From a virus: a stretch of 41,326 nt of DNA. Under the pieces are notes generated by a model, which was not told the DNA's origin, made no database searches, and saw only the letters and a list, made by a program, of their open reading frames with translations. Made by a program: the position numbers and the translations under genes. Positions 14,326-32,136 of this stretch are shown in pieces (within the stretch, counting starts at the first letter, position 1; each line of letters begins with the position of its first letter). The stretch lies in the IMG/VR virus record IMGVR_UViG_3300006921_000035, positions 1 through 41,326 of that record; one strand, given 5' to 3'.

Positions 14326-15900
14326 TTAATCATTAAGATGGTAAATAGCCCATCTACTATTAGAACTACAATTATGTAATGTTCTAGGACTTATAGTTAC
14401 TTCAACTTCAACTGGCCCTTTATCATCAGGATATGGTACAGAAACAGAACGAGTAATATAATCTTTAAATTGTATTTGTACAAAATCTTCAGAATTTCTT
14501 TCAAACTTTAATGTTAAAATATTATCATTACCACCTGCACCATGACTACTTTCTCCACCTTCTCTTAATAAATCCCAAATTTTTGTATCGGTAATAAGTA
14601 GAGTTAAAGAAAGTTCATACTGTCTTTGTCCGGCAGTGTGATTAGACATAATTTGATTATTATAGTTACCAATAAATCTTTGACCTACAATGTTATTATT
14701 TATTGTTAAAGTACCTGATTTAACTCTAGCAAAACTTTGTCCATAAATTTCAATAGTACCATCATGAAATAAATATGGTATTTTATTTTCTGAATAGTTG
14801 CTATAACTAGTTATATCTATTACTTGTCTATGAGGTGCATAATTTTGTGGTGCATCGAATGCACTACGAGTTACTAATTCTACTGAATTTTTTACTTCCT
14901 GTCCTTCATCAAATTGTAGGGTTAAAGAATTAACTTGACATCCTGTAAAGATTCTAGAATATACTTGTTCTTCAGGTGTACTTGATGATGGTGCAGTTTG
15001 AACTGAAAAATCACCACCGGATGCTCTGTTCGCTCCTTTTGAATATGAAACATCTAAAGCAAAAGAAGGTAATATACCGGAATTGTCTTCTGTAATACCA
15101 TAGACAAACTCTTTACTAGCGTCAGTAGCGTTTATCTTACTAAAATTATCAGTAAATTCTGTACCGTCTACTTGACTTCCTACAGGAGAAGGGTCAGGAT
15201 AACCTTGAGCACCCGTTGTACCACTTGGAACAATATTACGAACAATTCCTTTTGTTACATCTACTGCGATTTCATTAGTACCACCACTAGTAGTAAGAGT
15301 ACCTGTTCCGTCTACACTACTTACAGATATATTACCTAATGCGTAATATAACCACATTGCGTTATTCATAGATACTTCTATACTTCCACCACTTACTGTT
15401 TCACCCTTAGTAAACTGAAAGCCTAAATTTCTAGAACCACCTGCAACTAAATTTAATTCGCCTGTTTCTACTTCTACATTTGGCGGTGTAAATGTATTTA
15501 CAAGACCTAACCAATTATCAGAAAGAATTGAGGTTTTACCACTAGTAGGAGCAAAAACAGGAACAGGTGCTCCAAATTCTTGTATTGTAACAGTACAATT
15601 TGTACCTGTTGTAGTAAACACATTTTCAGCAACAGTAATAGTAGTATCTGTATTGGATAAAACACTAGTTATTATTTTGTTAGTAGTAGCACTTGTATCA
15701 ATTATTTCAATATTACAACCTGTGTATAAATTAGGAACTAATTTTAAACTTTGTCTAGTTCCATCAGTATAATCTGTGTCAATAGTAATTATAGAATTAG
15801 CAGCATCAGAAACTAAACAATCACTACCAAGAAATATTTTACTCTCCGGTGCATAACTAGCAATAACTCCTGACCCTACAAATATCTCATTACTTACCAT
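14326..15900 (-). CDS. Major tail tube protein
   Basis: This 524-residue beta-rich protein has a C-terminal half that reads like a tail tube fold: YGQSFARVKSGTLTINNNI, then YELSLTLLI, then DNILTLKFERN with VQIQFKDYITRSVSV and the closing VEVEVTISPRTL. The N-terminal half is T/S/N/G-rich and may be an extra surface domain, making the protein longer than usual tube proteins (150-350 residues). It lies after the tail terminator candidate and before the frameshifted chaperone, the standard place. There is no sheath gene in the window, which points to a non-contractile tail. Confidence 0.75.
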   Translation of the reverse strand: MVSNEIFVGSGVIASYAPESKIFLGSDCLVSDAANSIITIDTDYTDGTRQSLKLVPNLYTGCNIEIIDTSATTNKIITSVLSNTDTTITVAENVFTTTGTNCTVTIQEFGAPVPVFAPTSGKTSILSDNWLGLVNTFTPPNVEVETGELNLVAGGSRNLGFQFTKGETVSGGSIEVSMNNAMWLYYALGNISVSSVDGTGTLTTSGGTNEIAVDVTKGIVRNIVPSGTTGAQGYPDPSPVGSQVDGTEFTDNFSKINATDASKEFVYGITEDNSGILPSFALDVSYSKGANRASGGDFSVQTAPSSSTPEEQVYSRIFTGCQVNSLTLQFDEGQEVKNSVELVTRSAFDAPQNYAPHRQVIDITSYSNYSENKIPYLFHDGTIEIYGQSFARVKSGTLTINNNIVGQRFIGNYNNQIMSNHTAGQRQYELSLTLLITDTKIWDLLREGGESSHGAGGNDNILTLKFERNSEDFVQIQFKDYITRSVSVPYPDDKGPVEVEVTISPRTLHNCSSNSRWAIYHLND

Positions 15901-16459: not shown

Positions 16460-16647
16460 AGTTTAGCAACCTCTTCTTCTATTCTTTTTGCAAATACTTT
16501 ATCAAATGCACTATGGGATTGTTCTATAACTGCTTCGTCAGATAATGCAAACTCCGCATATATACTATCTTTTAACATATCATTACGTTGTTGCTGAATT
16601 GCAACAATTTCTTTGAATAATTTAATAACATCTTCCATAATAATCAC
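16456..16647 (-). CDS. Small helical protein, unknown function
   Basis: This 63-residue helical protein is rich in E, K, A and Q. The first codon is GTG, overlapping the connector's TGA; an ATG three codons later (16638) is an equally good start. Neither has a clear Shine-Dalgarno, so translation is probably coupled to the connector gene. It overlaps the next gene by four bases. Position suggests a head-completion or neck factor, but the sequence itself does not identify it. Confidence 0.55.
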   Translation of the reverse strand: MIIMEDVIKLFKEIVAIQQQRNDMLKDSIYAEFALSDEAVIEQSHSAFDKVFAKRIEEEVAKL

Positions 16648-17753
16648 GATATAAAATGAATAATATTTTTCTTTCCATTTAATATCTTATTCGCTTCTTC
16701 TAATAAAATATCATGTTTGGCTTTCAAATCAATATTAGAACCTGTTTCAGCAATTAATATTGAATTATCATCATGTCTAATTATTTCAGCCGCTACTAGT
16801 TTTGTGGCTGCTTCATGTATAGGAGCAGGTACACGTCCTTCACCTGCAACATAAGTTACTCTAATAGAATGATGTTGATTGTGTGGATATTCTTGTCTGA
16901 AAAAAATCTTCCCTTCATCATTTATAGTCCAATAATCATCATCTCTACCTGAATTTTGATTATCGGCAAATGAAGATACTGAACCGTATGTAGAAGTTAA
17001 TGTACAAAATGTTCCATCTTCTCCATCTAATAGTGAACTAATGACTATTTTTGTTTTATCTTCACTATCTAAAGTAGCATAAAAGAAATCAGAAACACGT
17101 ATATTATCTGCTTGACTAGTGCCATTAGCAAAAATTTCTTTACGTGCAGTTTCTTTTGTAAACTTAGCCGTCTTCATAGGAAATACTTCATTGATAGCAT
17201 CAACTATTTGACTTGCCGTAGTTTTAGGGCCAAAATTATCATAGAAGTGTCGAATGCTATTATTTGCTAAGTTTTTAATTTCAAAAGTGTAGGTAGTAGG
17301 ATTACCTACCGTTAATGTTATTGTCCAATCATTTGTGGTTGCAGAATTAGGTACAGTGAGTGTAGCAGTAGCAGAAGCCAAATCTAACCAAACATCTCCT
17401 TGATAAACTTCTAATCTTACTAATTTCTGTACTTTAGGATAACTTAACTGAACAAATCCTACATAGTCTTTGTAAGGTCTAAGAGGATATGCACGTTGTC
17501 TTAAATTATCAAATGAATGAAATTCATCTTTGTAAATAATAGGTCTGTATGATGTTTTTATTGAATCATCTATCTTTTCTTCTGCTCTTTTTATTAGTTT
17601 ACCTATTTCTACAAGATTTGGAGTAGTGTTTCCACTAAAAGAACTTATTTGTAATAAATTAGAAATATCTGTATGAGTAGTATAATGCCCATTACCTGCT
17701 GAATAATCTACATTTATATTTGTAAAATCACTAGGGGATGAAACTTTACCCAT
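16644..17753 (-). CDS. Head-tail connector (gp6-like adaptor) with beta insertion
   Basis: This 369-residue protein has helical ends resembling the adaptor fold. Near the N-terminus DISNLLQI and IGKLIKRAEEKIDDSIKTSYR form the first helices. Near the C-terminus SIRVTYVAGEGRVPAPIHEA leads into helix AATKLVAAEIIRHDD. Between them (about residues 110-270) lies a beta-rich insertion (TATLTVPNSATTNDWTITLT and later strands) that ordinary adaptors of 100-200 residues lack. The Shine-Dalgarno AGGAGG lies inside the last codons of the upstream gene. The adaptor would bind the portal after packaging. The role is well supported by the VTYVAGE..VP..I..A pattern and gene order. Confidence 0.65.
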   Translation of the reverse strand: MGKVSSPSDFTNINVDYSAGNGHYTTHTDISNLLQISSFSGNTTPNLVEIGKLIKRAEEKIDDSIKTSYRPIIYKDEFHSFDNLRQRAYPLRPYKDYVGFVQLSYPKVQKLVRLEVYQGDVWLDLASATATLTVPNSATTNDWTITLTVGNPTTYTFEIKNLANNSIRHFYDNFGPKTTASQIVDAINEVFPMKTAKFTKETARKEIFANGTSQADNIRVSDFFYATLDSEDKTKIVISSLLDGEDGTFCTLTSTYGSVSSFADNQNSGRDDDYWTINDEGKIFFRQEYPHNQHHSIRVTYVAGEGRVPAPIHEAATKLVAAEIIRHDDNSILIAETGSNIDLKAKHDILLEEANKILNGKKNIIHFIS

Positions 17754-17754
17754 A

Positions 17755-19773
17755 CTAATTGCCTCCTACTAACGCTCTTAGACTATTGTATCCCCTTTTA
17801 ATGTTTAGAAAATCTTTCTGAACTCTAACAACATCCATATTCATTGAAGTCGATTCTTCACCTTTCTTTGGTTTTTTAATTCTAAATTTATAATTTTTAG
17901 GTGTCGTATCAAGGAGCGTATTCATGTCATAAATTACATCTGCATATAATATTGGTATTCTACTTTTACCTGTGCTAAAACCTGAAAATTTACTAGTAGA
18001 CATAAGTTCTTTAGCATATTTATACATTGCAAGAAATAAAGGACTTTTTGCATCAGCAAATGATTCTTCAATATTTTCTACTTCTTCTGAAGTTAAATAT
18101 CCGTCTTGTTTCATGGCTTCATATTCTTCAAATAAATCGGTTAAATATAAATCGGGAGAATTAGATAATTCTTTGAATGATTTAAATAAATCAAGAATAA
18201 TTTGAAAATTACTTTCATCATCTTCGTCTTCTAAGAAATATTCCTTTTGATTTATTTCTATCTGACGTAACTCTTTTAATTGTCTCTTTTTTTCTCGCTT
18301 TTGTTCCTTCACTTCGTCTTTGTCCTTATTATTTATTTTGAACTCCAATTTTTTATCTTTTTCTTCTAATTCTTCTAATTGCCTTTTTTGTCCTCTAGTT
18401 AACATTGGTTTTGTTGAATCGGCAGCATTCTCTATTCTAGTCCTTAACTCATCTCTATCTATATCTTCAAAGAAATTTATAATTTCTTTTAATTTCATTA
18501 CTATTTTTTTAATTTCTTTGTTACTAGTTTTCATATCTTCTATACCTTCAAGATTAAGTTTATTTTTTATACTTTTAACCCACTTTTGTTTATCTTTAAT
18601 TGAGCCTTCTTTTGTTTTACTAACTTGTATTTCTAAAGTACCTAATTTTAATTTTCTTCTTTCTGCACTTAGATATCCATAAATAATATTTTTCAACGGG
18701 TGCTTATCTTGAGACATAATAATTTTTTCTAAGTATTTTTCAAGTAATTTAGGTTTAGTGCTTATTTCATCTATAGCATCATATGCTTCTTCTAAGGTAT
18801 CAAATGATTTACTACCTTTAAGTCCTTCAACAAGAAACTTGTCCTTTCCTTGTTCATACTTACCTGCTCCTTTATCGCCAATTAATTTTAGATGTAATAA
18901 AGGGATATTATTTCTTGTATCTTTTTCTGAAAAGGGTTTTGTTTCTGCTTCATACTCTTCACCGGAATAATCTTTTCCGGCAGGTGTAATAGTTTCACCC
19001 CCCAGTAGTCCAGCCCTAAAAGCAAAGTTTTCACTATCAAAAGCACCAAATCCTTCCCTAACAAATACATCATTTACATATTGTTTAGTATCCAATGTGA
19101 TTAATGCACCCATATTAATTTCACTATAATCAAAATATTTTTTAATCATCTCATACAATATAGGCTTACCACTATCTATAGCACTCATAAGTTCTCCACT
19201 TCTTTCAGAACCTTCTTCATCAGGTTCTTGTCCTCTCTCAGTAATATCTACTAATCTCTCTATTGCAGACTCATTATCTAATTGTGATAATTTAAAACTC
19301 TGTAATCTTCTCTCATTAAGTTTAAGTGGTTTGTCAATTATAACTTCAGTTGCTTCTTTACCACCCATCATTATTTTTTTGTTTTTTTGAGGAAAATATC
19401 CGTTTTCACTTAATGCTTCTATTATACTAAGCATATTTGTTTTTTCTATTTCTGATAAATAATGTTTGAAAAATTTATTCATTTCAGATTCAGTAATAGT
19501 ATCCATTAAATCTTGTTCTCTTTCTTTTAATCTTTCATACTGTTTATCATCATACTGCATTAATACAGCAAGTTTAGGTTTGACATTCTGCATAGGTTTA
19601 GGTCTTTTATTACTAGGTACGGCTCTATAAAACATATAACCTAACATACTTAAAAAAATAGGATTCTTTTCACTAATTAAAGCATCAAAACCTTTTCTTA
19701 GTTGAGCATTATTTAATACAACATCTTTCTCAGTATTAGGTACTATGTCAGCAGGTAATATTATTTCGCCCAT
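17755..19773 (-). CDS. Large coiled-coil protein of unknown function
   Basis: This 672-residue hydrophilic protein is rich in K and E, with no membrane segments or recognised catalytic motif. The stretch from about residue 440 to 520 (RGQKRQLEELEEKDKKLEF and following KDEVKEQKREKKRQL) is a clear charged coiled coil; most of the rest looks helical. The AAGGTGG Shine-Dalgarno supports the start. It stands between the GTPase/zinc-protein set and the head-tail connector. Possible roles include a head-completion, internal-core or scaffold-like factor, but the sequence does not choose between them. Confidence 0.6.
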   Translation of the reverse strand: MGEIILPADIVPNTEKDVVLNNAQLRKGFDALISEKNPIFLSMLGYMFYRAVPSNKRPKPMQNVKPKLAVLMQYDDKQYERLKEREQDLMDTITESEMNKFFKHYLSEIEKTNMLSIIEALSENGYFPQKNKKIMMGGKEATEVIIDKPLKLNERRLQSFKLSQLDNESAIERLVDITERGQEPDEEGSERSGELMSAIDSGKPILYEMIKKYFDYSEINMGALITLDTKQYVNDVFVREGFGAFDSENFAFRAGLLGGETITPAGKDYSGEEYEAETKPFSEKDTRNNIPLLHLKLIGDKGAGKYEQGKDKFLVEGLKGSKSFDTLEEAYDAIDEISTKPKLLEKYLEKIIMSQDKHPLKNIIYGYLSAERRKLKLGTLEIQVSKTKEGSIKDKQKWVKSIKNKLNLEGIEDMKTSNKEIKKIVMKLKEIINFFEDIDRDELRTRIENAADSTKPMLTRGQKRQLEELEEKDKKLEFKINNKDKDEVKEQKREKKRQLKELRQIEINQKEYFLEDEDDESNFQIILDLFKSFKELSNSPDLYLTDLFEEYEAMKQDGYLTSEEVENIEESFADAKSPLFLAMYKYAKELMSTSKFSGFSTGKSRIPILYADVIYDMNTLLDTTPKNYKFRIKKPKKGEESTSMNMDVVRVQKDFLNIKRGYNSLRALVGGN

Positions 19774-19786
19774 ACATCAAACCACC

Positions 19787-20473
19787 TTATGCAAGCCACT
19801 TAGCCCAAGCAACGCCTTTAGTTATAGCCGCACCTAAACCTAATCCACTTGCAGGAGGTGTATATGTCATTTGACCTGTGTTAGGGTCTATCCAATATGC
19901 ATTGTTCATATTATCGTATCCGGCAGGTGGAACAGGATATCCACTACCATTGTTCATAGCCATTTGTTGTTGCATCATAGTATTATTAATTCCTGTTCCC
20001 ATATTAGCACCTTGAATATTTTGTGGGTTCATTCCCATTTGATTGGTAACTTGAGGTTGTGTAGGAGATGCTGCACCACTAAATCCTTGAGACTCTAAAT
20101 ATTGTGCTTTTGCCATTCTTCGTTGCATAATAACTTCTGAATTTATTGCTGAAGTTAATAGATTTTGTAAATCTAATTCAATATTAGCAGCAGTAATTTG
20201 TTGATATTCTGTTTTAACATTAGGATTTAAAACAAACCCTCCACTTGCAGTATTAAATTCTAATTTTGATAGCATATCTCCAACAACTCTAGCAACAACA
20301 TCTTCAATTAATTTTTCCATACTCGTAAGAAATGCTTCTCCATGATATTGGAAAAAATCTTCTACATGATTCTCTTGTAGTGTTAATAAATTGTTCATCG
20401 TTTTAAATTGATTTTGTTGACTATTAGATATACTATTAGCCAATTGTGAATTGCTTGTTCCAAATAATCCCAT
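19787..20473 (-). CDS. Q/N/M/G-rich protein with hydrophobic C-terminus
   Basis: This 228-residue protein has an N-terminal helical half (residues 1-120). A low-complexity tail of Q, N, M, G and P follows at about 130-200, containing YWIDPNTGQMTYTPP, an OCRE-like or WW-like short aromatic/proline stretch. The end is a mildly hydrophobic segment (LGLGAAITKGVAWAKWLA) that could associate with a membrane. The start overlaps the upstream stop (TAATG). Together with the zinc protein, GTPase and two membrane proteins just upstream, it may belong to one functional set. Function is unknown. Confidence 0.55.
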   Translation of the reverse strand: MGLFGTSNSQLANSISNSQQNQFKTMNNLLTLQENHVEDFFQYHGEAFLTSMEKLIEDVVARVVGDMLSKLEFNTASGGFVLNPNVKTEYQQITAANIELDLQNLLTSAINSEVIMQRRMAKAQYLESQGFSGAASPTQPQVTNQMGMNPQNIQGANMGTGINNTMMQQQMAMNNGSGYPVPPAGYDNMNNAYWIDPNTGQMTYTPPASGLGLGAAITKGVAWAKWLA

Positions 20474-21159
20474 TACTTCTCACTCTCCGCCTGTACGCCC
20501 TTGCTTGTAACCTTAACGCCTTCGGTCAATAAGACTTTCACTCTTTTGGTATTAGATTCATTTTCTATTAGTAATCTAAATAACTCTTCTTCTTTATTTT
20601 CTATTGCCGCTTGTGGAGGTTTAATTGTCCAACCTAATCCTGCAAGAGATTGTATATCTCCTTGTTTTAAACTAGTTAATGGCCCACTAGATAATGGATT
20701 CAAATTAGGCATTTTTGGAATGTAAGCACTGTATGATAACCCATGTTCTTCGGCTAACATTTGTTGTTCTAACATTTCATATTGTCTATGTATTTGTGCA
20801 TGTTTATCACAATAAGTTCCTCTCATTGGATATCCTTTTCTAACTTTATGTAGTGGTAATGGTGGTCTTAAATTATCACTTGCTTCCCAAATCTTTTGAG
20901 TTCCACAAACAACACATCTGTCTTTTATGTTATATTTGAAACTATAAGGTATTTTGAAAAAAGATTTTTTCTCCGGTAAAAGAATCTTAATTATTTCTTT
21001 TAATTGTTTTTTCGGTTTTATATTCTTAAATTCGTACAACATTACTGTACCTGCTGCTCTTGCTTGGTCATGCCTGTCCATGAAGGCATTTGACGCTACA
21101 GATGTAGTAGTTGCACCAATTAAATTAGGTGGCTGATAGTTCATCGTCATGGTCTTCAC
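20473..21159 (-). CDS. Zinc-binding protein of unknown function
   Basis: This 228-residue protein has one probable zinc site made by C82-VV-C85-G and C117-DK-H120, a split C2/CH knuckle. A basic stretch (KPKKQLKEIIKIL) precedes it. The C-terminal third is helical and charged, with a KRVKVLL segment. The frame opens with GTG at 21159, but an ATG at codon 4 (21150) is better spaced from AGGTG and is likely the true start. It is translated next to the GTPase gene (three bases apart) and the Q/N/M-rich gene (overlapping), so it may be a partner of the GTPase. No family was recognised. Confidence 0.6.
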   Translation of the reverse strand: MKTMTMNYQPPNLIGATTTSVASNAFMDRHDQARAAGTVMLYEFKNIKPKKQLKEIIKILLPEKKSFFKIPYSFKYNIKDRCVVCGTQKIWEASDNLRPPLPLHKVRKGYPMRGTYCDKHAQIHRQYEMLEQQMLAEEHGLSYSAYIPKMPNLNPLSSGPLTSLKQGDIQSLAGLGWTIKPPQAAIENKEEELFRLLIENESNTKRVKVLLTEGVKVTSKGVQAESEK

Positions 21160-21161
21160 AC

Positions 21162-21833
21162 CTAGTAGTCCTTTATCATTGTTAAGATTCCCCTATATAC
21201 CATAGTTGAATCAGTTTTAGCACTAACAATGTATTTAAAACAAGGTATTCCTTTTTCATTTAATTTTTGCATTCCTGCTTTAAATGCATCAAAAATAGGA
21301 TGTTTATCTATTTCTCCTTCATGTTCATATTTATCTTTCCATAAGTCATATTTATTTGCCCAAACACCAACTGCTATAGGGTAATCATGGTCTTTTTTCT
21401 TTTTTAATTTATTATTAACATTCCAATGAGGTGAACAAATAGTATCTACTAAAAATGTCCAACATAATTGTTGTTCAATATCATAGTGTTTATCCATGTG
21501 TCTGTCATCAATTAAAAAAATAATATATTTTGTTCTACGCTCTTTCATGTCTTTTATCCATTCTGTCCAATAAATAGTTTGTCCACCAATATCAGCAGTT
21601 TTGACAGTATGTGCATTACCATCTAATTTAATATATTTTCTTGAGGCTTTTTCTAAACCTACTGTTCTTTCCATTATATCGGGTACTTCTCCCCTAGTTC
21701 TCAATTGGTGGTGCAATGTTGTCTTCCCTGCTTTACTCGCACCATATACACCAAAAGGTATTGAATGTAATCTTTGATATACCTTATTCAAACCCTCCAC
21801 CATTAAAATGGCAAAACCTGCCATTACTGACAA
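21162..21833 (-). CDS. Ras/Arf-like small GTPase
   Basis: This 223-residue protein has all five G motifs of a small GTPase: G1 GASKAGKT (31-38), G2 threonine T57 in RTVG, G3 DIGGQ (81-85) with the catalytic glutamine position kept, G4 NKYD (160-163), and G5 SAK (204-206). The G3 form DIGGQ is of the Arf/SRP-receptor-beta/Ras type and not the DTPG of translation factors. There is no CaaX box or N-terminal glycine for lipid anchoring; a short hydrophobic N-terminus (AGFAILMVEGL) precedes the G domain. The TTG start follows GGTGA; ATG at codon 4 (21824) is an alternative. It lies directly after two small membrane-protein genes and before a zinc protein. GTP binding is nearly certain, GTP hydrolysis likely, and the viral role unknown. 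Such a gene inside a capsid-tail operon is unexpected. Confidence 0.88.
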   Translation of the reverse strand: MSVMAGFAILMVEGLNKVYQRLHSIPFGVYGASKAGKTTLHHQLRTRGEVPDIMERTVGLEKASRKYIKLDGNAHTVKTADIGGQTIYWTEWIKDMKERRTKYIIFLIDDRHMDKHYDIEQQLCWTFLVDTICSPHWNVNNKLKKKKDHDYPIAVGVWANKYDLWKDKYEHEGEIDKHPIFDAFKAGMQKLNEKGIPCFKYIVSAKTDSTMVYRGILTMIKDY

Positions 21834-21837
21834 ATTA

Positions 21838-22062
21838 TCACCACAAATGATGCCAAATGTCTACCAACCCATTCCACATTATTGACATTGTATTAATACC
21901 AAATATTGCTAATGTTTGTCCAAGAAAGAAACTAGAAATTGAACCTACAATTCCCCATATCCAAAATCTTGCTCTCAAAAACCAAATGTCAGCAGAATGT
22001 GCTCTTTGTAAATCGTAAGCCATAGCGGTTTCATCAAAACCCATTAGGATTTCTCCAACCAT
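21838..22062 (-). CDS. Small membrane protein upstream of the GTPase
   Basis: This 74-residue protein has a hydrophilic N-terminus (1-30) followed by hydrophobic stretches (WIWGIVGSISSFFLG, then LAIFGI and IMWNGLVDIW), enough for one long or two short membrane segments. The GAGGTGA Shine-Dalgarno is well placed before the ATG. It lies 13 bases after the 146-residue membrane protein and 4 bases before the GTPase. The tight spacing suggests the membrane proteins and GTPase act together, the membrane proteins perhaps as anchors. No known family was recognised; a holin is a weak alternative because no endolysin is present. Confidence 0.65.
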   Translation of the reverse strand: MVGEILMGFDETAMAYDLQRAHSADIWFLRARFWIWGIVGSISSFFLGQTLAIFGINTMSIMWNGLVDIWHHLW

Positions 22063-22075
22063 TATCTCACCTCAA

Positions 22076-22516
22076 TCATTGTTCTATTGTTAAAAACGAA
22101 GGGCTTACACCTTCTGTATTGCCTTTGATGACGGGTAAATTAGCATCACCATAAACATTAGTAGGGGATTGAACTGTATTATTCCATGTTTGTTGAAAAT
22201 TTCTAAAAGATTCTCGAACTCTTTTACGGTTCTCTTCCTCTCTTGCTCTACGATTCCAATAAGAATCAATACGTCTTTGTAATAATGTTTCTTCAATGTA
22301 ATCATTAGCAACTAAATCAAAAACTGCTTTCATTATCATAATTCCGCCTATTGTAGATATACCAAATAAAACTGCATGTGCTTCAATAGTATATGGGAAA
22401 CCTACTCCATATTGGGCATAGAAATAAACATTTACTCCACTAACTGCTCCAACAAAAAGAATAGTCATTACTAATCTTGTATCATTATCTATGCTTGCCA
22501 CGATAATCAACTCCAC
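22076..22516 (-). CDS. Membrane protein with cytosolic helical tail
   Basis: This 146-residue protein has two predicted membrane segments at about 14-33 (LVMTILFVGAVSGVNVYFYA) and 45-68 (HAVLFGISTIGGIMIMKAVF). A basic amphipathic region follows (RIDSYWNRRAREEENRKRVR), then a polar tail. The frame opens at GTG 22516, but GTG at codon 7 (22498) has GGAG nine bases upstream and begins after the previous gene's stop, so it may be the real start. It is the first member of the membrane-protein/GTPase set. The function is unknown; an inner-membrane anchor or a virion-associated entry factor are both possible. Confidence 0.65.
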   Translation of the reverse strand: MELIIVASIDNDTRLVMTILFVGAVSGVNVYFYAQYGVGFPYTIEAHAVLFGISTIGGIMIMKAVFDLVANDYIEETLLQRRIDSYWNRRAREEENRKRVRESFRNFQQTWNNTVQSPTNVYGDANLPVIKGNTEGVSPSFLTIEQ

Positions 22517-22796
22517 TCTAGGGAGAAAAAACCTGTGCCACTAACCTTTTTTATAAATAGTCCTTTAGCACAAAAACGACCATGCATATCAAATTCACCG
22601 GAAGTTCCTGCTAGTAATATCATTCTACAAACTTCAGTATCTCCTGATTCTGAAGCATCATCGCTATCATAAACTGAAACAGTTAATTTATCAGATGCAT
22701 GAGTATTAGCGACATGTAAACTTACTAATTTACACTTACCTGTAAAAACTAATGCATCAGCATTCTTTACTCCACTACCACTACAACCTATGCCAT
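22507..22796 (-). pseudogene. Decoration-like beta protein, frame broken after codon 2
   Basis: A clear protein frame encodes IGCSGSG, then ADALVFTGKCKLVSLHVANT, then strands ending FSLEWS, finishing with TGA at 22507-22509. It resembles small beta-sandwich decoration or head-fibre proteins of marine phages. The frame has no ATG, GTG or TTG before its middle. Instead, an ATG at 22796 with a good Shine-Dalgarno (AAGGAAGTG) reads ATG GCA TAG in the frame of the upstream gene and stops at once. Adding one base after GC would give MAIGCSGSG and a 96-residue protein, so a one-base deletion, real or a sequencing/assembly error, is the simplest explanation. A -1 frameshift from the upstream 135-residue gene, in the manner of T7 10A/10B, is the alternative, although no slippery heptamer is seen. 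Confidence 0.6.
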
Positions 22797-23195
22797 CACT
22801 TCCTTATCTTCTTCTGTAGGGGTTTCTTTCTTAGGGGTTTCTACCTTTTTTGCTTTCTTAGCAGGTGCTTTCTTAGCAGGTGCTTTTTTTGCTTTAGGTT
22901 TTGGAGATGCTTTTACTTTCTTAGGAAATAATATTTTTTCTACTTGTGATGCAGTATCTCCTTCTTGTAATCCATCTGTGAATTTAATTAATTGATTTAA
23001 TTTATAATTACTTAATCTTCCAATATCTGCTTTATCCATATTATCTAATTCTATAGTAAGATTAGGTTCTGTCCATATGTTGATAGCATGATTTAGTGGC
23101 ATTTGTATTGCTTTGTTAGAACTGATGACGTAATTCTGTCCACCGATTCTAATTGTTCTTGGCAGTGCGTTTATTGATTGTTTTATTTGTACCAT
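22788..23195 (-). CDS. Head-associated protein with K/P/A-rich tail
   Basis: Its 135 residues comprise a compact N-terminal domain (1-90: NALPRTIRIGGQNYVI, then HAINIWTEPNLTIELDN) and a tail of lysine, proline and alanine repeats (KKAPAKKAPAKKAKK, about 105-119). The very end is acidic (TPTEEDKEVMA). The tail is like those of histone H1 or HU-like proteins and could bind DNA or acidic surfaces. A tandem DNA repeat underlies the KKAPA units. A Shine-Dalgarno AAGGAG precedes the ATG, and a strong hairpin lies between the capsid gene and this start. Its position after the capsid gene suggests a head protein. The role is unknown. Confidence 0.6.
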   Translation of the reverse strand: MVQIKQSINALPRTIRIGGQNYVISSNKAIQMPLNHAINIWTEPNLTIELDNMDKADIGRLSNYKLNQLIKFTDGLQEGDTASQVEKILFPKKVKASPKPKAKKAPAKKAPAKKAKKVETPKKETPTEEDKEVMA

Positions 23196-23328: not shown

Positions 23329-24717
23329 TTAAGCACTCTTCAAGTTAGTTATCTTACCTTGACCTTTGAAGAAAGAACAACATGTTTCTGCAATTGTTCT
23401 ATACAAACCTAAGTTTCCAAGTTTACCAACACCGAATGGGTTTCCATTTGAAATACCATCCTCGAAGTATTCTGTGGGTTTCATAACTGATAACCACAAA
23501 TGGTCTGTATCTAGGATAAATATATCACTTAGACCATTTGTTGTACCGGATGCAGTTGTTGAAGCCATATCCTTACAAGGGATAATTGGTATATCATAGT
23601 ATGTTGCAACTCTGAATCCAACTTCTTGACCCTTTACACCACGAACACCATTATGTGTAGGAACAATTTCTTTCCTATCCATAAATCTCTCTTGGCTTTG
23701 TAGTAAGTCAGAGATGTGTTGTATAGTATCGTATCCTGTTAAGATAACTTTAGGGTTTCCACCATTTTGACGGATTCTGCGAATCATGTCATTTAGTAGT
23801 GTTAAAGTTAATACTCTAGCAGAACCACTTGCGTAACTTGCACCGAAATCAACTTCAGCATCTAAATAACTTGGTGTAATTACTACGTCATCAACACTGT
23901 CAGCATCATTTGGACTGTTAGTGTTATCTGCCGCAGCAACAACTCCTCTGTTGTCACCATAAATAGCCTTGATTTTTGGGTCAATTGCTACTACACCGCT
24001 ACCAGTTGCATTGTCTTCTGTTATATCATCCAAATACATTTGTCCTATTTCAGTAGCACTTGTTACAATCTTATACAAAGATGTGTAGTTGTGGTCTACT
24101 TCTGTAATACCTGATTGAGAGTAAGATTCAAGAGGCAATAATAGCATCTTGTTCTGTACTTCAGCATGGTGTTTACCCATATCTTCACGAACTACTGCAC
24201 GTATATCGCCAACACCGTCATCAATAGCAGCCATTTCCATTGCAAGTTCAGAGAACTCAAATTTGTGTGCTATTGTTTTAGGGCTTACGAATAGTTTTGT
24301 ATATTCAGGGGCTAAAGCAGGTATGTTTGATAGAGATTGATTCTCCGATACACCACCTATTTCATCTAATCTTGGTGCTGCTCCACCTGCATTATCTGTA
24401 CCAACTGCAAAAGAAGAACCACTACCACCTTGAGGTCGGCTCTTTAGAACTCTCCAACCACTTGATGTATATGGTCTCTTAGCAATCATTGACAAAGCAT
24501 TAACTTCTTGGTTAAGCATTGACCATACTTTCTGTCCATAAAGAACATTGTACAAGTCAGTTAATCCTGTTGCACCACTAAAGGCAGTACCGCCATCGTG
24601 TGAACCATGTAGTCCACCAACCACTCCTGCCGCTTTCAACAAAGCATTACCATTACCGCCTGTTAGACCGTATGATGATGCTTCTAAATCTTTCATTGTT
24701 TTTATATATCCACTCAT
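23329..24717 (-). CDS. Major capsid protein (HK97-type)
   Basis: Its 462 residues have features of an HK97-fold capsid protein. After an N-terminal arm (to about residue 130) comes LAPEYTKLFVSPKTIAHKFEFS, the typical start of the P domain strand and spine helix (LAMEMAA...VREDMGKHH). The A domain includes LTLTLLNDMIRRIRQNGGNPKVI with the family-like GYDTIQHISDLLQ. The end has a strand pair around DIFILDTDHLWLSVMKP and LGNLGLYRTIAETCCSFFKGQGKI. The AAGGAGTGA Shine-Dalgarno supports the start. It lies right after the protease/scaffold gene, as usual. The arm is G/A/S-rich and long enough to be cleaved by the protease, but no cleavage site could be fixed. Confidence 0.88.
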   Translation of the reverse strand: MSGYIKTMKDLEASSYGLTGGNGNALLKAAGVVGGLHGSHDGGTAFSGATGLTDLYNVLYGQKVWSMLNQEVNALSMIAKRPYTSSGWRVLKSRPQGGSGSSFAVGTDNAGGAAPRLDEIGGVSENQSLSNIPALAPEYTKLFVSPKTIAHKFEFSELAMEMAAIDDGVGDIRAVVREDMGKHHAEVQNKMLLLPLESYSQSGITEVDHNYTSLYKIVTSATEIGQMYLDDITEDNATGSGVVAIDPKIKAIYGDNRGVVAAADNTNSPNDADSVDDVVITPSYLDAEVDFGASYASGSARVLTLTLLNDMIRRIRQNGGNPKVILTGYDTIQHISDLLQSQERFMDRKEIVPTHNGVRGVKGQEVGFRVATYYDIPIIPCKDMASTTASGTTNGLSDIFILDTDHLWLSVMKPTEYFEDGISNGNPFGVGKLGNLGLYRTIAETCCSFFKGQGKITNLKSA

Positions 24718-24730
24718 TTCTTATCACTCC

Positions 24731-25390
24731 TTAATTATATTTCCTCGCTATATCAGCAATCTCATTCCATGATAGGTTACTTACATCACTAGGAATTTCT
24801 ATTGATTGTGATTTAACAATCTCATCATTTTGTACAGTTAAAGATTTGCGTAGTTCTGCAAATTCTTCTTTCAAAGCAATTACATCTGAACGAGCATCAT
24901 ATGATGCTGCTTCAGCACTTGCTTTCTTAACTTCTAATTCTTCTGTAAGCCTTGCTTCAAATTGCTTGCTTAGAGAATCGTATGCAATCTTTTCCATTCT
25001 TTCTGCTTTGAATGCTTCATATGCTTTTTCAACATTTTCTGCACTTAAGTTAAGAGTAGAGAAGTCAGTATCCGCTAGACCTTTTGCAACATCTAATGCT
25101 GCTGGTGCTGCTTTAGGATTACCATTGTCAACAACAAGTTCTCCGGCTTCGTAGTCTCTTGTTGAATCTTCATCAAGAGCCTTTTCTTCCATATCCATGT
25201 CATCATCCATGTCATCATCCTTATCCTCTGTATCCATCATTTCTTTATCAGAATCCATGTATTCCATATCGCCTTTTACTTCAAGGGATGCGTCTGTCGT
25301 ATTTTCTTCATTTTTTTCCACAATTGAGGAATTAACTTGTTTCATCAAGTCATTTAACTCCTCAAGTGCTTTTTCCAGTTTATCACTCAT
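24731..25390 (-). CDS. Nested scaffold protein (internal start)
   Basis: Inside the protease-scaffold gene, codon 181 is an ATG preceded by GGAGGT with a 6-base spacer, a near-ideal ribosome site. It falls exactly at the boundary between the protease and the scaffold (MSDKLEKALEEL). Translation from here gives a 219-residue scaffold without protease, as in lambda C/Nu3. The internal start is inferred from the ribosome site and its position at a domain boundary. Confidence 0.7.
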   Translation of the reverse strand: MSDKLEKALEELNDLMKQVNSSIVEKNEENTTDASLEVKGDMEYMDSDKEMMDTEDKDDDMDDDMDMEEKALDEDSTRDYEAGELVVDNGNPKAAPAALDVAKGLADTDFSTLNLSAENVEKAYEAFKAERMEKIAYDSLSKQFEARLTEELEVKKASAEAASYDARSDVIALKEEFAELRKSLTVQNDEIVKSQSIEIPSDVSNLSWNEIADIARKYN

Positions 25391-25930
25391 TTTATTACCT
25401 CCAACATCTTGTTTTAAAATGTCGAATTTCGCTTCGGGATTTATTCCCTTTTCACAAATGGTTACTTCGTGAAGTTCTAACTTTTCTATTTCGTTATACT
25501 CTCCGTATTCATCATTTGTCTTCTGTTTCTTAGATATGGCTTGTCCACCAATACTAAAGGAACGAAGAGTTCCTTTTCTAATACCTCTTGATATTTCTTT
25601 TGCCTTTTCTATATCATCTCTTAGTTTAATAACAACATAGAAACCAACATCGTCTACTGCTGTTTTATGTAGTATACCATTACTATCTCGATATTTTTCT
25701 ACAACTTCTCCAACTTGTACATTAGAATGATTAGACATTACATTTCTATATTTTGTTTCTTTCATATATTTTGTAACTGCATCATTTAATGCTTCTAATG
25801 TAATTAAGTCATTTTGTTTGTCAACAATTTCTATAGAAGCATAGCCACCAATAACCAAATCATCAGACTTTAAAATACGAAATTCGTGGCTACTATCTGC
25901 CTTCATTAAAAGGGATTCTGCCATAACCAC
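24731..25930 (-). CDS. Prohead protease fused to scaffold
   Basis: This 399-residue protein has two parts. Residues 1-175 form an S78-like prohead protease: VIGGYASIEIVDKQNDLI near the start, a candidate catalytic His68 in MSNHSN, then the serine segment TLRSFSIGGQ (S124/S126), and the closing LHEVTICEKGINPEAKF. Residues 181-399 are an acidic scaffold with an MD/DD-rich stretch (about 235-255), a long helix, and a C-terminal LSWNEIADIARKYN. The frame opens with GTG; the ATG at codon 3 (25924) is the likelier start. Fusion of protease and scaffold is common in tailed viruses. A possible promoter lies 31 bases upstream of that ATG. The scaffold would bind capsid protein and be digested after shell assembly. 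Confidence 0.85.
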   Translation of the reverse strand: MVMAESLLMKADSSHEFRILKSDDLVIGGYASIEIVDKQNDLITLEALNDAVTKYMKETKYRNVMSNHSNVQVGEVVEKYRDSNGILHKTAVDDVGFYVVIKLRDDIEKAKEISRGIRKGTLRSFSIGGQAISKKQKTNDEYGEYNEIEKLELHEVTICEKGINPEAKFDILKQDVGGNKMSDKLEKALEELNDLMKQVNSSIVEKNEENTTDASLEVKGDMEYMDSDKEMMDTEDKDDDMDDDMDMEEKALDEDSTRDYEAGELVVDNGNPKAAPAALDVAKGLADTDFSTLNLSAENVEKAYEAFKAERMEKIAYDSLSKQFEARLTEELEVKKASAEAASYDARSDVIALKEEFAELRKSLTVQNDEIVKSQSIEIPSDVSNLSWNEIADIARKYN

Positions 25931-25962: not shown

Positions 25963-28578
25963 TTAGTCGCTACTTTTAGGAGGAAATTGTAATTTTGCAT
26001 ATTTATCTTCTCTAATATCCCATAAATTTTCATTGTCCTTATTATCTAACATCTCTTGCTTTTTTCCTGTCCATGCTATCCATGTATTTTTCTCATTTAA
26101 TGGTACAACACGAAGATGCATTCTTGTATCAAATTTATCTCCTTCCAATTTATATTCGTGATATCCGTCTTTTTGAACTCCTAAAATTAATTTACCACTG
26201 TCTAACAAATCGTCTTCGTCAGTTTTGTTTGCTACGACAGCAGGAAACTTACCCGATTTACCGAATAAATTGTAAACATCTTCAGTATCTTCTATATCAA
26301 TAGTCCATGCTAACTTTTCATCTTCTATCATCATAACAAAATCTAAATTACTATCTTCACGCTGATATATTTTAAAAGTCGCTTCTTTTACTTTTTTTTG
26401 TAAATCATCAATGTCTTTTTCTAAAACATCTTCTCTTGCTTGAAATTTGTTAGGATGTATATATCGCATATCATCTTGTTTTTTCATCCAAGACATTAAT
26501 TTTTCTTTTCTACTATCAAATAGTTCTTCATATTGTTCTTTATAATTTGTAATAATAAACTCTACTATTTTGTCAAAGGGCTTGGGGCTATCTCCATATT
26601 CTATAATATCATTACGAATGGCAAGTCTTAATTCAGACCTTTTTGTTTTTAAAATAGAACTTAGTTGTTCTTTCCATAAATCTATATTATACAAAGCATT
26701 TTTTTGCATAAGTGAGTCACCTTCAAACCCATAAATAGTAAATCCATCAATGTCTTCTTTTAATATAATTTCAGCAGTTCCATGTACATCATCAGTAACA
26801 TAGTATGATTTTTTTATTCCTGCCTTTTTATGTTTTTTCTTATTTTTCCCGTTATCTGATAAACCACTACTTACTCTAAACAACCCTCCCATTGTTCTTC
26901 CTGCTACAAACTCTACAAAATCAGATAGTGATTTTTTAGTTTTTCCTGCAAGTTGTTCTAAAGTAATAACACTATCAGATTCAGTTACTTCAGGCAATTC
27001 AATAACTTTGGCAGAATATAAACTAAAACCATCTTTTGTTTTCTTGACTTCATCTACTTTAACTCTAATAATATCACCAATATTAACACTTTGTTTAGTA
27101 TTAAGTGCTTTACCTACCGGAATATATGCTTTATCTTCTAATTCTACAGTCTTATATTTTCTAGCATTTTCAGCAGTAACAGGGCCAATACCCATAGTAT
27201 AACTATGTAAGTTACTTTTAGTTTTTTTATCATCTAAAACTATAACATCTAAATCAATAAATTTTTTCCACTTAATCCACTTAGGATTTTTCTTTTTGCC
27301 TATCAAATAGGTTGATTCAATGTCTTTAATTACAACTCCTTCAGAATTAGGTAGTATCATAATATCCTTAGAATAGTCTTCTATTTCTTTTATTGAGTCA
27401 GCAATACGAGTATCTTTTTTAGATGGGAAAGCCAAATTTTCTGTAGAATGTTGGCTATATTGATAAAATAAGATATTAATTCTTTCACGTAATGGTTCGT
27501 CAGCAATCATCTTACCTTCATGTTTCATAATGTCAAACACGTGAGCAGATAGTCTTCCTTTGGTTTCTTTCTTAAAAACATGTGAAATTGTATCGGCTCT
27601 GTGCAACGGTTCATCATTTAGAAATAAAGTAAGTTCTGCATCCAAAATACAATCTCCAAAGTTTTTCTTTTTCATTTCTTTTACTTGTTGAGGACACTTA
27701 TCAGTGATATCCTTTTTGTTGTAGGAATATATAGTAATAATATCATCAGTCTTATGGATTTGTATTCTCATCCCATCATACTTCTCTTGTACTAACCATT
27801 CTCCACTGAAACCTTTTAATTCTTTAATATCATCTACTTCAAAAATTCTATACATAGGTTTGTTAGGAATTAAAAAATCAACCTCTGCTTTTTCTTCTTC
27901 GCTTTTTTGTGCCTTTGTAATATTTACTGCTTCTAAGTTTTCCCATTTAGATTCAGGATATATTTCTTTATACATCTCTTCTAATTTTTGTAATCCTGCT
28001 TTTATTTTATTTTTTATTCTAGAATTATTCTTGTCATTTCCATAGTGTTCTATTACAAATAAAGATATATCACTAACTTTCAAATCTAATCCCATTACTC
28101 CTCTTGTAATTAAATCAGGTTTCATTTCAAATTGTTCCCATAATTTTTCCGGTAAAGCATTTGCATGACTTCTCATAGCATAATGTAAAAAAGCAAGTAA
28201 AACTTCTTCTTTTTCCATAAAAGTTTCAATTACTTTATTATCAAATTGTTTGACAAAAGGGTCAGTTATTTCTTCTGATTTGAATCTCATTTCTTTTATA
28301 GAGTCAAATAGTTTACGAGCATCATCAGAAGTTGCATCTAAAACATCACTATCAAACAAAACTTTTTCATCTATAAATTTCTTAAGTTCTGATGCAAAAC
28401 TACTAATGTTATCAAAGTCTTCTTTCATCATTCTTACAATTTTTTTCCACTCGGTAGTATATTCCGCAGGGTCTTCTCTTGCAGAAAGATAAGCATATCT
28501 AGCACGTTCAAAGAAATCTAAAATACGTTGCGTTAACGAATCTTTTTCTTTTTCAAAGGCTAAACCTGTTTGAGCCAT
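25963..28578 (-). CDS. ATP-dependent DNA ligase with long C-terminal extension
   Basis: This 871-residue protein has the nucleotidyltransferase motifs: I EKYDGMR with adenylated Lys266, III DAELTLF (313-319), IIIa SAHVFDI, IV EGVVIKD (413-419), and V WIKWKK (434-439). An OB-fold (about 445-540; NIGDIIRVKVDEV) completes the core. The N-terminal 240 residues are helical but do not obviously match the usual DNA-binding domain. Residues 540-871 are an additional region: a K-rich helical part and a final beta domain (KLILGVQKDGYHEYKLEG, then MHLRVVPL and WIAWTGKK). That end loosely recalls the fold of LigD phosphoesterase domains, but no catalytic set was confirmed. Typical archaeal ligases are about 560-620 residues. 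The gene sits among capsid genes, so the enzyme may be packaged or may repair nicks during packaging; that is inference. Confidence 0.85.
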   Translation of the reverse strand: MAQTGLAFEKEKDSLTQRILDFFERARYAYLSAREDPAEYTTEWKKIVRMMKEDFDNISSFASELKKFIDEKVLFDSDVLDATSDDARKLFDSIKEMRFKSEEITDPFVKQFDNKVIETFMEKEEVLLAFLHYAMRSHANALPEKLWEQFEMKPDLITRGVMGLDLKVSDISLFVIEHYGNDKNNSRIKNKIKAGLQKLEEMYKEIYPESKWENLEAVNITKAQKSEEEKAEVDFLIPNKPMYRIFEVDDIKELKGFSGEWLVQEKYDGMRIQIHKTDDIITIYSYNKKDITDKCPQQVKEMKKKNFGDCILDAELTLFLNDEPLHRADTISHVFKKETKGRLSAHVFDIMKHEGKMIADEPLRERINILFYQYSQHSTENLAFPSKKDTRIADSIKEIEDYSKDIMILPNSEGVVIKDIESTYLIGKKKNPKWIKWKKFIDLDVIVLDDKKTKSNLHSYTMGIGPVTAENARKYKTVELEDKAYIPVGKALNTKQSVNIGDIIRVKVDEVKKTKDGFSLYSAKVIELPEVTESDSVITLEQLAGKTKKSLSDFVEFVAGRTMGGLFRVSSGLSDNGKNKKKHKKAGIKKSYYVTDDVHGTAEIILKEDIDGFTIYGFEGDSLMQKNALYNIDLWKEQLSSILKTKRSELRLAIRNDIIEYGDSPKPFDKIVEFIITNYKEQYEELFDSRKEKLMSWMKKQDDMRYIHPNKFQAREDVLEKDIDDLQKKVKEATFKIYQREDSNLDFVMMIEDEKLAWTIDIEDTEDVYNLFGKSGKFPAVVANKTDEDDLLDSGKLILGVQKDGYHEYKLEGDKFDTRMHLRVVPLNEKNTWIAWTGKKQEMLDNKDNENLWDIREDKYAKLQFPPKSSD

Positions 28579-29521: not shown

Positions 29522-30349
29522 CTAACTCTCTCTTGCTTTCTTATTACGTTCTAATATTCTTGCTAACAATTCCTTTTCATCATCTTTAGTTCTTTTAGCG
29601 GCTTCTTCATCTTGCCCTGTAGAAGTTGTTGTTGTAACCCTATCCATTGGGTTAGATTTTTCTGTTGCACAATGAGCCTTAAGACTTTCAAACCAATCCA
29701 TTTTACCAAATTCTCCTAGTGTAGTTTGACGTTGTTCTTGTGGTTGTTGTGGTTGTTGTGGTTGTTGTGGTTGTTGTGGAGGTGGAGTATTAAATTGGTC
29801 TAATGTTGCTTGTTGAGGCTGTTTTTTTGCTTGTAATTCTGCTTTTCTTTTCTGTACTGTGTTATCAAACACACCACGTATTTCTTTAGTGTCAGCACTA
29901 ACGAAGGCTTTATACATGTCTCTTATACCAAAGGCTCTACTAAAACTCAACCTTAGGTCTCTAACATGGGTAAGATATAGTTTCTCCATTTCAGCAGCAT
30001 CATTCAATGCATTATCATAATATCCTGCTCGAATCATAGCAAGATATTGTCGTCTATCATTGGGAAGGACTTGTTCTTGTGATATTGCTGCTTTACCTAT
30101 TATTATTGCGTCCTTTAACGAATTTCTTGCACCACCTTCATTCCAAATATCTTCTCCTGAAGGATTACGTGAAAGGGTTTCCATAGCATTTATTAAATCA
30201 TTAAAATTTTGAGCATATTTAATAGACTGTTGAAATCTAGATTTAACTTCTTCATTAGAATTTTGTTTATTCTTTCTACCAAATGGTAATCTTATTTTAG
30301 AGATATTATCTTCTTCATCACCTTTCTCAAGTATATCTTGCCAACTCAT
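29522..30349 (-). CDS. Accessory head protein with two PIP-box-like peptides
   Basis: This 275-residue protein opens with MSWQDILEKG, a copy of the shared tryptophan motif. Residues 30-175 form a helical domain. A linker follows with QATLDQF (180-186), a PQQ repeat, QTTLGEF (208-214) and a second tryptophan motif KMDWFESLKAH (216-226). The QxxLxxF pattern is that of PCNA-interacting (PIP) boxes, although the last aromatic is replaced by N and G. The end is a charged helix. The start overlaps the previous stop (ATGA). A bridge between capsid proteins and the host sliding clamp is possible; nothing in the helical domain identifies it. Confidence 0.6.
   Translation of the reverse strand: MSWQDILEKGDEEDNISKIRLPFGRKNKQNSNEEVKSRFQQSIKYAQNFNDLINAMETLSRNPSGEDIWNEGGARNSLKDAIIIGKAAISQEQVLPNDRRQYLAMIRAGYYDNALNDAAEMEKLYLTHVRDLRLSFSRAFGIRDMYKAFVSADTKEIRGVFDNTVQKRKAELQAKKQPQQATLDQFNTPPPQQPQQPQQPQQPQEQRQTTLGEFGKMDWFESLKAHCATEKSNPMDRVTTTTSTGQDEEAAKRTKDDEKELLARILERNKKARES
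29742..29777. repeat. Tandem 9-base repeat (GGTTGTTGT x4)
   Basis: Four perfect direct copies of the nonamer GGTTGTTGT lie inside the 275-residue gene and encode its PQQ linker on the minus strand. A repeat of this kind may vary in copy number by slippage without breaking the frame. Confidence 0.85.
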
Positions 30350-30675
30350 TCTAAATCACCTTTCTTCTTTGGATAAACTACTGTTCTTAATTGATTGTAA
30401 AGAGTCTCGTAGCCCTTCCTTAGTTTAGATGCGGTGGCTACTAAGTCTAAGTTACTTTCGTCATATTTTTCTAATTTCTTCCTTAATACCTTATCAGACT
30501 TTACTAAATCTAGTGACTTCATCTCTGAAATTAAATCAGTTAATTTAGTAACTTCTTGACCCATAAACTCTGTTGGTTCAGCAGCCTGTAATAGTTTTTT
30601 GATTTTCTTTTTTTGTTTAGGTTCTAACTTAGCAACAAGACCTCTATCTTCTTTAACTAGTTCGAACCAATCCAT
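30346..30675 (-). CDS. Small helical protein starting with W motif
   Basis: This 109-residue helical protein is rich in K, L and E. It begins MDWFELVKED, a copy of the tryptophan motif shared with its neighbours. A basic stretch (PKQKKKIKKLLQAAEP) follows, then coiled-coil helices. The AGGTGA Shine-Dalgarno supports the ATG. Its stop overlaps the start of the 275-residue gene (ATGA). The motif in several consecutive genes suggests one shared partner. The function is unknown. Confidence 0.6.
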   Translation of the reverse strand: MDWFELVKEDRGLVAKLEPKQKKKIKKLLQAAEPTEFMGQEVTKLTDLISEMKSLDLVKSDKVLRKKLEKYDESNLDLVATASKLRKGYETLYNQLRTVVYPKKKGDLE

Positions 30676-30678
30676 TCT

Positions 30679-31902
30679 TTATTCACCTAACTTTTTTCTT
30701 ACATTCGTTTTGTTCATATAATTATTTGCAGCACTTTCAAGTTCGGGAAAACGCCTCTCTAAATTAACATTTCTAGGAACGTCTATATCTTCTAAGGGGT
30801 CTTCTATTTGAGATAAGGCCATGTAGTCTCCTCTTAATTTCAATACTGCAATCAAAAATTCTGCTACATCTAGATATTTTTCTACAGAACTTAATTCGCT
30901 TTTTGGAGGACTTCTTCTGTGAGTTTCCAACCTATCTTGTAGTTCTATAGTTTCCATTGCTATTTCAATTAATGCACTTTCTAATTTATTATATTTAGTA
31001 GTGAATAATAATTTTTCTTCCTGTTCAGAATATTCTTCTGATTTTTTAGGAACTATTGTCATTATCTCTTCTATGAGTTTTTCATAATCTCCTAAGTCAA
31101 AGTGTTCCATTAATGACTCTCTGCTACTAGATACTTCTTTTCTTGATATTGTATCTAAACCTAAACCTTTTTGTAATTCTATGAACAATTCTCTACTATC
31201 TTTGTCTTGATATTTTCTATATGCAATTTTTTCATCATACATCCAATTTTCAGTTGAAGCATCCCATTTTGCTTCAGTATTTTCTAATAATACTGGATGT
31301 AATTGTTTATATGGTCTGCCATCTAAAAAGAAATCTTGAATTTTAGGTATAGCACTTTTAATATTAGCAGCCTTGAGATTTTGTATATCTTCACTATCTT
31401 CTCTAAACCCGTTAGCCGCAATAGATACAAATGCTTTTTCTAATAACTCTATTGGCAACGTTTCCTTTGTTGGTCGAGGTTTTTTCTTTTTACTTCCTAA
31501 TTTTGTATTTTTATCTAACATACTTAATCCGTATAATACATCTAATAAGTCGTCTATCTCATTTCTCATTTCTATTGATAATTTTTCTTTTGTTTCTTTT
31601 TCATATCTCATTAGACTTTTAAAAGTTATATTTTCTATAAATTTACGCAGTAATTTACCAATAAAATTAAGATAAGAATCTTGACGAAGGTATGTTTCTT
31701 TTGATGCCTTAATATCTTTTAATTTATATGATAATGGATTTTTATCGTTTTTTACAGCATGTAATAATATTTTTTTAATGTAGTCTTTTTCAAATATATC
31801 ATATGCCATATCCATTTCTTGTCTTGAGATTTTCTTTTTTTTAGCCTGTGCATACAAAAAGGGGTCAATTTCTCTAGCCTTTAATACATCCATAAAACTC
31901 AT
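30679..31902 (-). CDS. Helical protein starting with W-like motif, unknown
   Basis: This 407-residue, mostly helical, charged protein begins MSFMDVLKAREIDPF, a variant of the motif with F in place of W. It has no membrane segment. A basic patch (KLGSKKKKPRPTKE) lies at about residue 136-149. The GGTGAG Shine-Dalgarno supports the start. It follows the short 74-residue gene in the portal-to-protease interval, where minor head proteins are usual. I recognise no domain; an inner-capsid or ejected protein is possible. Confidence 0.55.
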   Translation of the reverse strand: MSFMDVLKAREIDPFLYAQAKKKKISRQEMDMAYDIFEKDYIKKILLHAVKNDKNPLSYKLKDIKASKETYLRQDSYLNFIGKLLRKFIENITFKSLMRYEKETKEKLSIEMRNEIDDLLDVLYGLSMLDKNTKLGSKKKKPRPTKETLPIELLEKAFVSIAANGFREDSEDIQNLKAANIKSAIPKIQDFFLDGRPYKQLHPVLLENTEAKWDASTENWMYDEKIAYRKYQDKDSRELFIELQKGLGLDTISRKEVSSSRESLMEHFDLGDYEKLIEEIMTIVPKKSEEYSEQEEKLLFTTKYNKLESALIEIAMETIELQDRLETHRRSPPKSELSSVEKYLDVAEFLIAVLKLRGDYMALSQIEDPLEDIDVPRNVNLERRFPELESAANNYMNKTNVRKKLGE

Positions 31903-31911
31903 ACTCTCACC

Positions 31912-32136
31912 TTAAAATGGTATATTTTCACTTTGCTTTTGTCTTTTCTTTGGTAAAAGTATAGCATTTGGAACTTCAGCACTATTAGGCGAAGGTCTGT
32001 GATTTTCAGTAGGTCTAGCAACACCAACAGTAAAATCTCTATTTTTTTCTATCCTTGCATCTGCTATACTTTTCTCACGTATTCTTGCTTCTTTTAGTTC
32101 TTTTTCCAATTGTCTTACACCTTTATCTTCGCTCAT
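31912..32136 (-). CDS. Small hydrophilic protein, unknown function
   Basis: This 74-residue protein has a charged N-terminal helix (QLEKELKEARIREKSIADA) and a proline-rich, disordered-looking C-terminal half. There is no motif. A GGGAGG Shine-Dalgarno is well placed, and its start overlaps the stop of the EF-hand gene. Short size and composition suggest a linker or minor head factor; no family was recognised. Confidence 0.5.
   Translation of the reverse strand: MSEDKGVRQLEKELKEARIREKSIADARIEKNRDFTVGVARPTENHRPSPNSAEVPNAILLPKKRQKQSENIPF

Follow-up and report, generated by a model that had tools for sequence, protein, structure and literature searches.

What does a complete small GTPase do among the head and tail genes of a tailed virus? 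The question is posed by a stretch of viral DNA of 41,326 nucleotides (IMG/VR record IMGVR_UViG_3300006921_000035; hereafter the window), in which the minus strand carries head and tail genes in a single long series. A first-pass annotation had singled out a GTPase gene, two membrane protein genes and the genes of a zinc and a Q/N/M-rich protein as a five-gene set, here called the cassette, placed between the head and connector genes. The genes concerned are the following.

35474-36910, minus strand: terminase
32495-34120, minus strand: portal
25963-28578, minus strand: ATP-dependent DNA ligase
24731-25930, minus strand: prohead protease
23329-24717, minus strand: major capsid protein (PF17236, E 9e-9; phrog_24667, E 9e-22)
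22076-22501, minus strand: TM146, membrane protein, two TM helices by hydropathy
21838-22062, minus strand: TM74, small membrane protein with a single TM helix by hydropathy
21162-21833, minus strand: small GTPase, 223 aa, TTG start
20473-21159, minus strand: Zn228, CxxC...CxxH zinc-ribbon-like protein
19787-20473, minus strand: QN228, Q/N/M/P-rich protein
16644-17753, minus strand: head-tail connector (Ad1-like), bounding the cassette on the tail side
14326-15900, minus strand: tail tube (further tail genes are also present)

The window is part of a magrovirus-type tailed virus; the known hosts of magroviruses are Marine Group II archaea. Its capsid protein matches that of HCTV-1 at 24% and the Druskaviridae with an hhalign probability of 99.65%, and the connector matches HVTV-1 gp125 (hhalign 98.4%) and the PHROG head-tail adaptor phrog_442 (E 6.5e-7). 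The features of Magrovirales were found, namely a Druskavirus-related capsid, PolB and marine genomes of 85-105 kb; PolB and genome size were seen in near-complete relatives, the window itself being a 41-kb fragment without replication genes. All 20 long contigs (86-103 kb) bearing the cassette encode PolB, 19 of them with two matches, and nine encode a chaperonin; a split PolB together with a GroEL-type chaperonin would mark an Aoguangviridae-like subgroup, to which these viruses may belong. This content agrees with that of published magroviruses (PMC10768690; PMC5332604), which are without integrases and predicted to be lytic (PMC10768690).

Several neighbouring genes have features of their own. 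The gene for a 135-residue protein lies between the capsid and TM146 genes, and between it and TM146 is a small beta-rich open reading frame (22507-22803, minus strand) with no ATG, GTG or TTG near its start in the window; one is present in 176 of 178 distinct relatives, and a non-standard start, a frameshift or a sequence error are possible explanations. The highly variable 672-residue protein between QN228 and the connector (17755-19773, minus strand) was found at the equivalent place in only 40 of 106 relatives, forming a fast-changing island amid conserved genes. Upstream of the terminase, an 894-residue protein (37477-40161, minus strand) gave only a weak match to DNA gyrase B (E 0.0019). 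Several head-region proteins (29522-32486, minus strand; also L458, L460 and L461) share a short helical motif at their start or close to it, in the forms MSWQDILEK, MDWFELVKE and MDWFESLK; in a second marine virus group described below (the sister group) it appears in many copies as EPMDxAxxLLK. By analogy with T4 internal proteins, it could be a capsid-targeting peptide.

Judged by its motifs and predicted fold, the product of 21162-21833 is a true small GTPase with a TRAFAC G domain of the Ras superfamily. The gene begins with TTG in the window and with ATG at the equivalent codon in most relatives. The protein is laid out as follows.

Residues 2-22: N-terminal helix
Residues 31-38: G1, GASKAGKT
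Residues R56-T57: switch I, with T57
Residues 81-85: G3, DIGGQ
Residues 160-163: G4, NKYD
Residues 204-206: G5, SAK

All five G motifs are thus present as first described, and apart from the switch-II glutamine they are invariant (G36, K37, T38, T57, D81, G83, G84, N160, K161, D163, S204, A205, K206) in an alignment of 34 relatives, 62-87% identical to the window protein. The switch-II glutamine, said to be kept, is indeed present in the window virus and in sister-group GTPases; as a family feature it did not hold, as among 146 distinct sequences 50 carry it and the other 96 have Glu. Sister-group GTPases keep G1, G3 and G4, and their G5 reads ATR. The gene is under strong purifying selection, with dN (0.011-0.075) about 12-20 times below dS (0.15-0.91). 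A chance motif match was ruled out by the invariance among relatives together with the predicted fold, and an ATPase/AAA reading, prompted by weak PF01637 and PF13479 matches, by the NKxD motif and the fold. The GTPase had no PADLOC match, and a role as a defence gene was likewise rejected.

A predicted fold lacking a G domain would have counted against the first-pass annotation; structure prediction of the GTPase returned a G domain. The AF2 model built from 46 sequences of both groups (mean pLDDT 84.7, pTM 0.82) has the canonical order of strands and helices, with the extra helix 2-22 in front. Foldseek matched it to 1545 PDB chains at E <= 0.001, the best being Rab, Arf and Arl proteins (Rab1, Arl1, Arf6 and Rab5, target-normalised TM 0.70-0.79), and on this model the protein folds as a G domain of the Ras superfamily, with Arf/Arl/Rab as its nearest kin. 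An earlier model from 34 close sequences (pLDDT 67), poor in the P-loop and switches until mended by the sister sequences, gave the same structural kin; the viral matches listed at E <= 0.001 for that model were all proteins of eukaryotic giant viruses. The subfamily is unsure, because the Arf profile (PF00025) scored 22.9 bits, barely over its gathering cut-off of 22.3, with Roc, MMR_HSR1 and SRPRB close behind. PF00025 was matched at E 0.01 by only 15 of the 34 relatives, and Roc and MMR_HSR1 match more family members than the Arf profile does. Residue 2 is a Ser conserved in the window clade, in place of the Gly2 of Arf-type myristoylation. Hydropathy analysis revealed no TM helix in the GTPase; the N-terminal helix is shorter than a TM segment requires, and relatives in both groups show it to be hydrophobic, with moderate amphipathicity.

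The partner genes are tightly packed. Intergenic gaps along the cassette are 13, 4, 2 and -1 bases, a spacing like that of operons with translational coupling; the first two, from TM146 to TM74 and from TM74 to the GTPase, had been given correctly. The membrane character of both upstream proteins was borne out by hydropathy. The length of 146 residues given for TM146 was not, as the true start is probably the GTG at 22501, where relatives begin with MPSID or MAAI, giving 141 aa. In TM146 the TM helices are followed by a charged helix and then by a disordered tail that ends with a conserved FL. In TM74 the TM helix comes after an invariant YxxxRAHSAD stretch (Y16, R20, A21, H22, S23, A24 and D25 in 12 diverse relatives). 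Both downstream proteins are present as described. Zn228 has four invariant positions, C82, C85, C117 and H120. QN228 has a helical N-terminal half, then a Q/N/M/P-rich linker and a conserved C-terminal tail (GYPxPPxGYD...YWIDPxTGQ...AWAKWL). A WW-like domain suspected by eye in this tail (PPxGYD...YWIDPxTGQ...Y.PP) had no Pfam match up to E 10 and was discarded.

Is the set an accident of one genome? The GTPase family occurs in at least 391 IMG/VR stretches. Across 157 distinct GTPase loci the four partners were present wherever room allowed (TM146 154/154, TM74 155/155, Zn228 133/133, QN228 123/123). The order TM146, TM74, GTPase, Zn228, QN228 was kept in 142 of 142 complete loci, so the five genes do form a conserved set. 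Starting from the capsid gene, the GTPase was found in 63/63 and then 106/106 loci with room (169 in all, in two sets that have contigs in common and are not fully independent); starting from QN228, it was found in 64/64. Among eight late proteins the GTPase is the most conserved (mean pairwise identity 0.694, versus 0.682 for the capsid), and its distances track those of the other late proteins (Spearman 0.71-0.84). The phage collection, plasmids and PHROGs contained no relative of the family, in line with the original remark that a complete small GTPase is not a known component of the HK97-type assembly line. In the genome collection, relatives were detected on two contigs (L109, L110) binned in a Maricaulis MAG; these are viral by content, and their placement is probably a binning error. 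No close cellular relative was found there by a pattern-based search, which remote kin could escape.

The sister group has capsid, protease and connector in common with the window clade, and its capsid-connector interval holds no cassette gene. From this empty interval the group had been taken to be without the GTPase, a conclusion overturned by searching whole records: all four records longer than 77 kb carry a homologue (E 1e-33 to 1e-36), shorter ones being possibly incomplete at their ends. There, about 8 kb upstream of the terminase, lies a cassette of a two-TM protein, a small membrane protein, the GTPase, a zinc protein and a protein rich in Q/N; with 80 more loci added, 71 of 71 cases had the full set in this order. 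The co-occurrence of the five proteins, proposed at the outset as a check, thus holds in both groups, whereas the location between head and connector is right for the window virus and not for the sister group. Profile comparison linked the GTPases of the two groups at 99.95% (E 1.6e-37), the zinc proteins at 95.8% (hhalign, E 7e-9) and the Q/N proteins at 82.8% (hhalign, E 9e-6). For the two membrane proteins hhalign detected no homology between groups, and the match is one of position and topology; a spanin-like PHROG match of the sister TM protein (E 0.048) is weak and carries no evidential weight. In the sister group (L393-L457; G021-G027) the Q/N gene is followed by genes for one more small TM protein and for an HTH protein rich in Cys (72/72 each). 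With their unsplit PolB and high-scoring chaperonin, these viruses look like a further magrovirus group, perhaps group A with its thermosome. Either the cassette shifted as one unit or it was placed twice. Because it is intact at another genome position, it is an independent functional module rather than part of the head-connector line.

Druskaviridae (HVTV-1, HCTV-1) have homologous protease, capsid and connector, yet no GTPase, zinc or Q/N gene between capsid and connector, and a whole-record search of two druskavirus-like records (G028, G029) found no GTPase. Directly before the connector, HVTV-1 and HCTV-1 each encode a small one-TM protein, gp124 and gp116 respectively (L111, 14199-14531). 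The GTPase cassette may thus be younger than the presence of a membrane protein here, although gp124 has no detectable homology to TM146 or TM74. The G domain resembles Arf/Arl proteins (PF00025) in structure (Foldseek TMt up to 0.79 to Arf6), in the helix before strand 1, in TxG of switch I and, in the window virus and sister group, in DxGGQ; it differs in its identity of about 17%, the lack of Gly2, a G5 of SAK or ATR and a switch-II Gln that is often Glu. Rab/Ras-like GTPases of giant viruses (BFVD matches) are likewise small, virus-encoded GTPases, but belong to eukaryotic viruses and are 10-20% identical to the window protein.

Of working systems, ArvABC is the nearest analogue. In Haloferax volcanii the small GTPase ArvA, which has an N-terminal helix, drives vesicle formation with ArvB and the zinc-ribbon protein ArvC; loss of ArvA or ArvB reduces vesicles, loss of ArvC increases them, and the authors of that study suggest that ArvC is a GAP (PMC10927574). 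The viral cassette resembles this operon, as far as the published description of ArvA rather than its sequence allows, in a small Arf-like GTPase with an N-terminal helix, a zinc-ribbon operon partner and an archaeal setting. It differs in being viral, in the late virion region, and in having two integral membrane proteins and a Q/N-rich protein; Pfam scans found no DUF2073 (ArvB) or DUF2072 (ArvC) match in its proteins. By analogy, it would at most work like the Arv system.

We propose, tentatively and as a serious possibility, that the cassette is a virus-encoded, membrane-associated GTP switch, made late with the virion genes and serving a late membrane step. The proposal is drawn from the neighbourhood, in which two membrane proteins, a zinc ribbon and a disordered multivalent protein accompany a GTPase with an N-terminal helix. 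Also in its favour are the invariant G motifs, the fold, the synteny kept at two genome positions, the high conservation of the GTPase and the predicted lytic life of magroviruses. Less favourable are the shortness and moderate amphipathicity of the N-terminal helix, the missing DUF2072 and DUF2073 matches and the lack of detectable homology between the membrane proteins of the two groups. The GTPase in its GTP state would insert the N-terminal helix into the host membrane where TM146 and TM74 mark the site. The invariant RAHSAD segment of TM74, which has an Arg, and/or Zn228 might regulate GTP hydrolysis in a GAP- or adaptor-like way, and multivalent QN228 could collect and crowd at the activated site. 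The outcome would be a controlled membrane site where assembling virions dock and, most likely, where the membrane is also opened or vesiculated for exit, in the manner of the ArvABC vesiculation operon or an Arf-type switch.

Sequence alone does not separate exit from assembly or entry; the gene neighbours and the position in the late virion region favour a late membrane step without pointing to entry in particular. The module might instead serve assembly only, holding proheads or connectors at the host membrane while timing a maturation step by GTP hydrolysis with no remodelling or opening of the membrane. It adjoins the capsid and connector genes in the window clade and lies upstream of the terminase in the sister group, and the GTPase is co-inherited with head genes. 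We nevertheless think this rather unlikely, as the module can change place in the genome and is missing from Druskaviridae despite their homologous capsid, protease and connector, so that basic HK97 assembly is independent of it.

Improbable, in our view, is that the proteins are packaged and delivered to act on the host membrane or signalling at entry: integral membrane proteins are unusual cargo for a membrane-free tailed virion and no signal in favour of packaging was seen, even if the cassette is encoded among virion genes, where small internal proteins are common. Poorer still are the prospects of a host take-over independent of virion production, in which the viral protein imitates a small GTPase of the host, or competes with it, and stops host vesiculation or redirects the envelope. 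GTPases of the ArvA type do serve vesicle formation in archaeal cells (PMC10927574), but the viral gene is locked in the late structural region with four dedicated partners, and the pattern-based search of the genome collection gave no close cellular relative.

In the magrovirus literature apart from the founding papers (Philosof 2017, Zhou 2023, Prabhu 2025) we found no mention of a GTPase, nor any account of the conserved cassette or of its change of place from one group to the other; an earlier annotation of the gene is possible. The cassette, strictly conserved in both virus groups, is a concrete and testable candidate for a membrane step. How archaeal tailed viruses leave the cell is, to our knowledge, largely unknown, and we know of no Caudoviricetes with a GTPase-driven membrane exit. 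Marine Group II are among the most abundant surface-ocean archaea. That a tailed dsDNA virus lineage should have its own Arf/ArvA-like vesiculation machine and leave the archaeal cell by GTPase-driven budding or opening is a speculative reading, and we doubt it more than we credit it; if true, such exit would be a viral parallel to eukaryotic coat recruitment. The cassette suggests that a cell-like molecular switch controls an assembly or exit step at the host membrane. Arf-like membrane switching is usually linked to eukaryotes and their archaeal kin; if the proposal is true, it would also be a stable tool of prokaryotic viruses.
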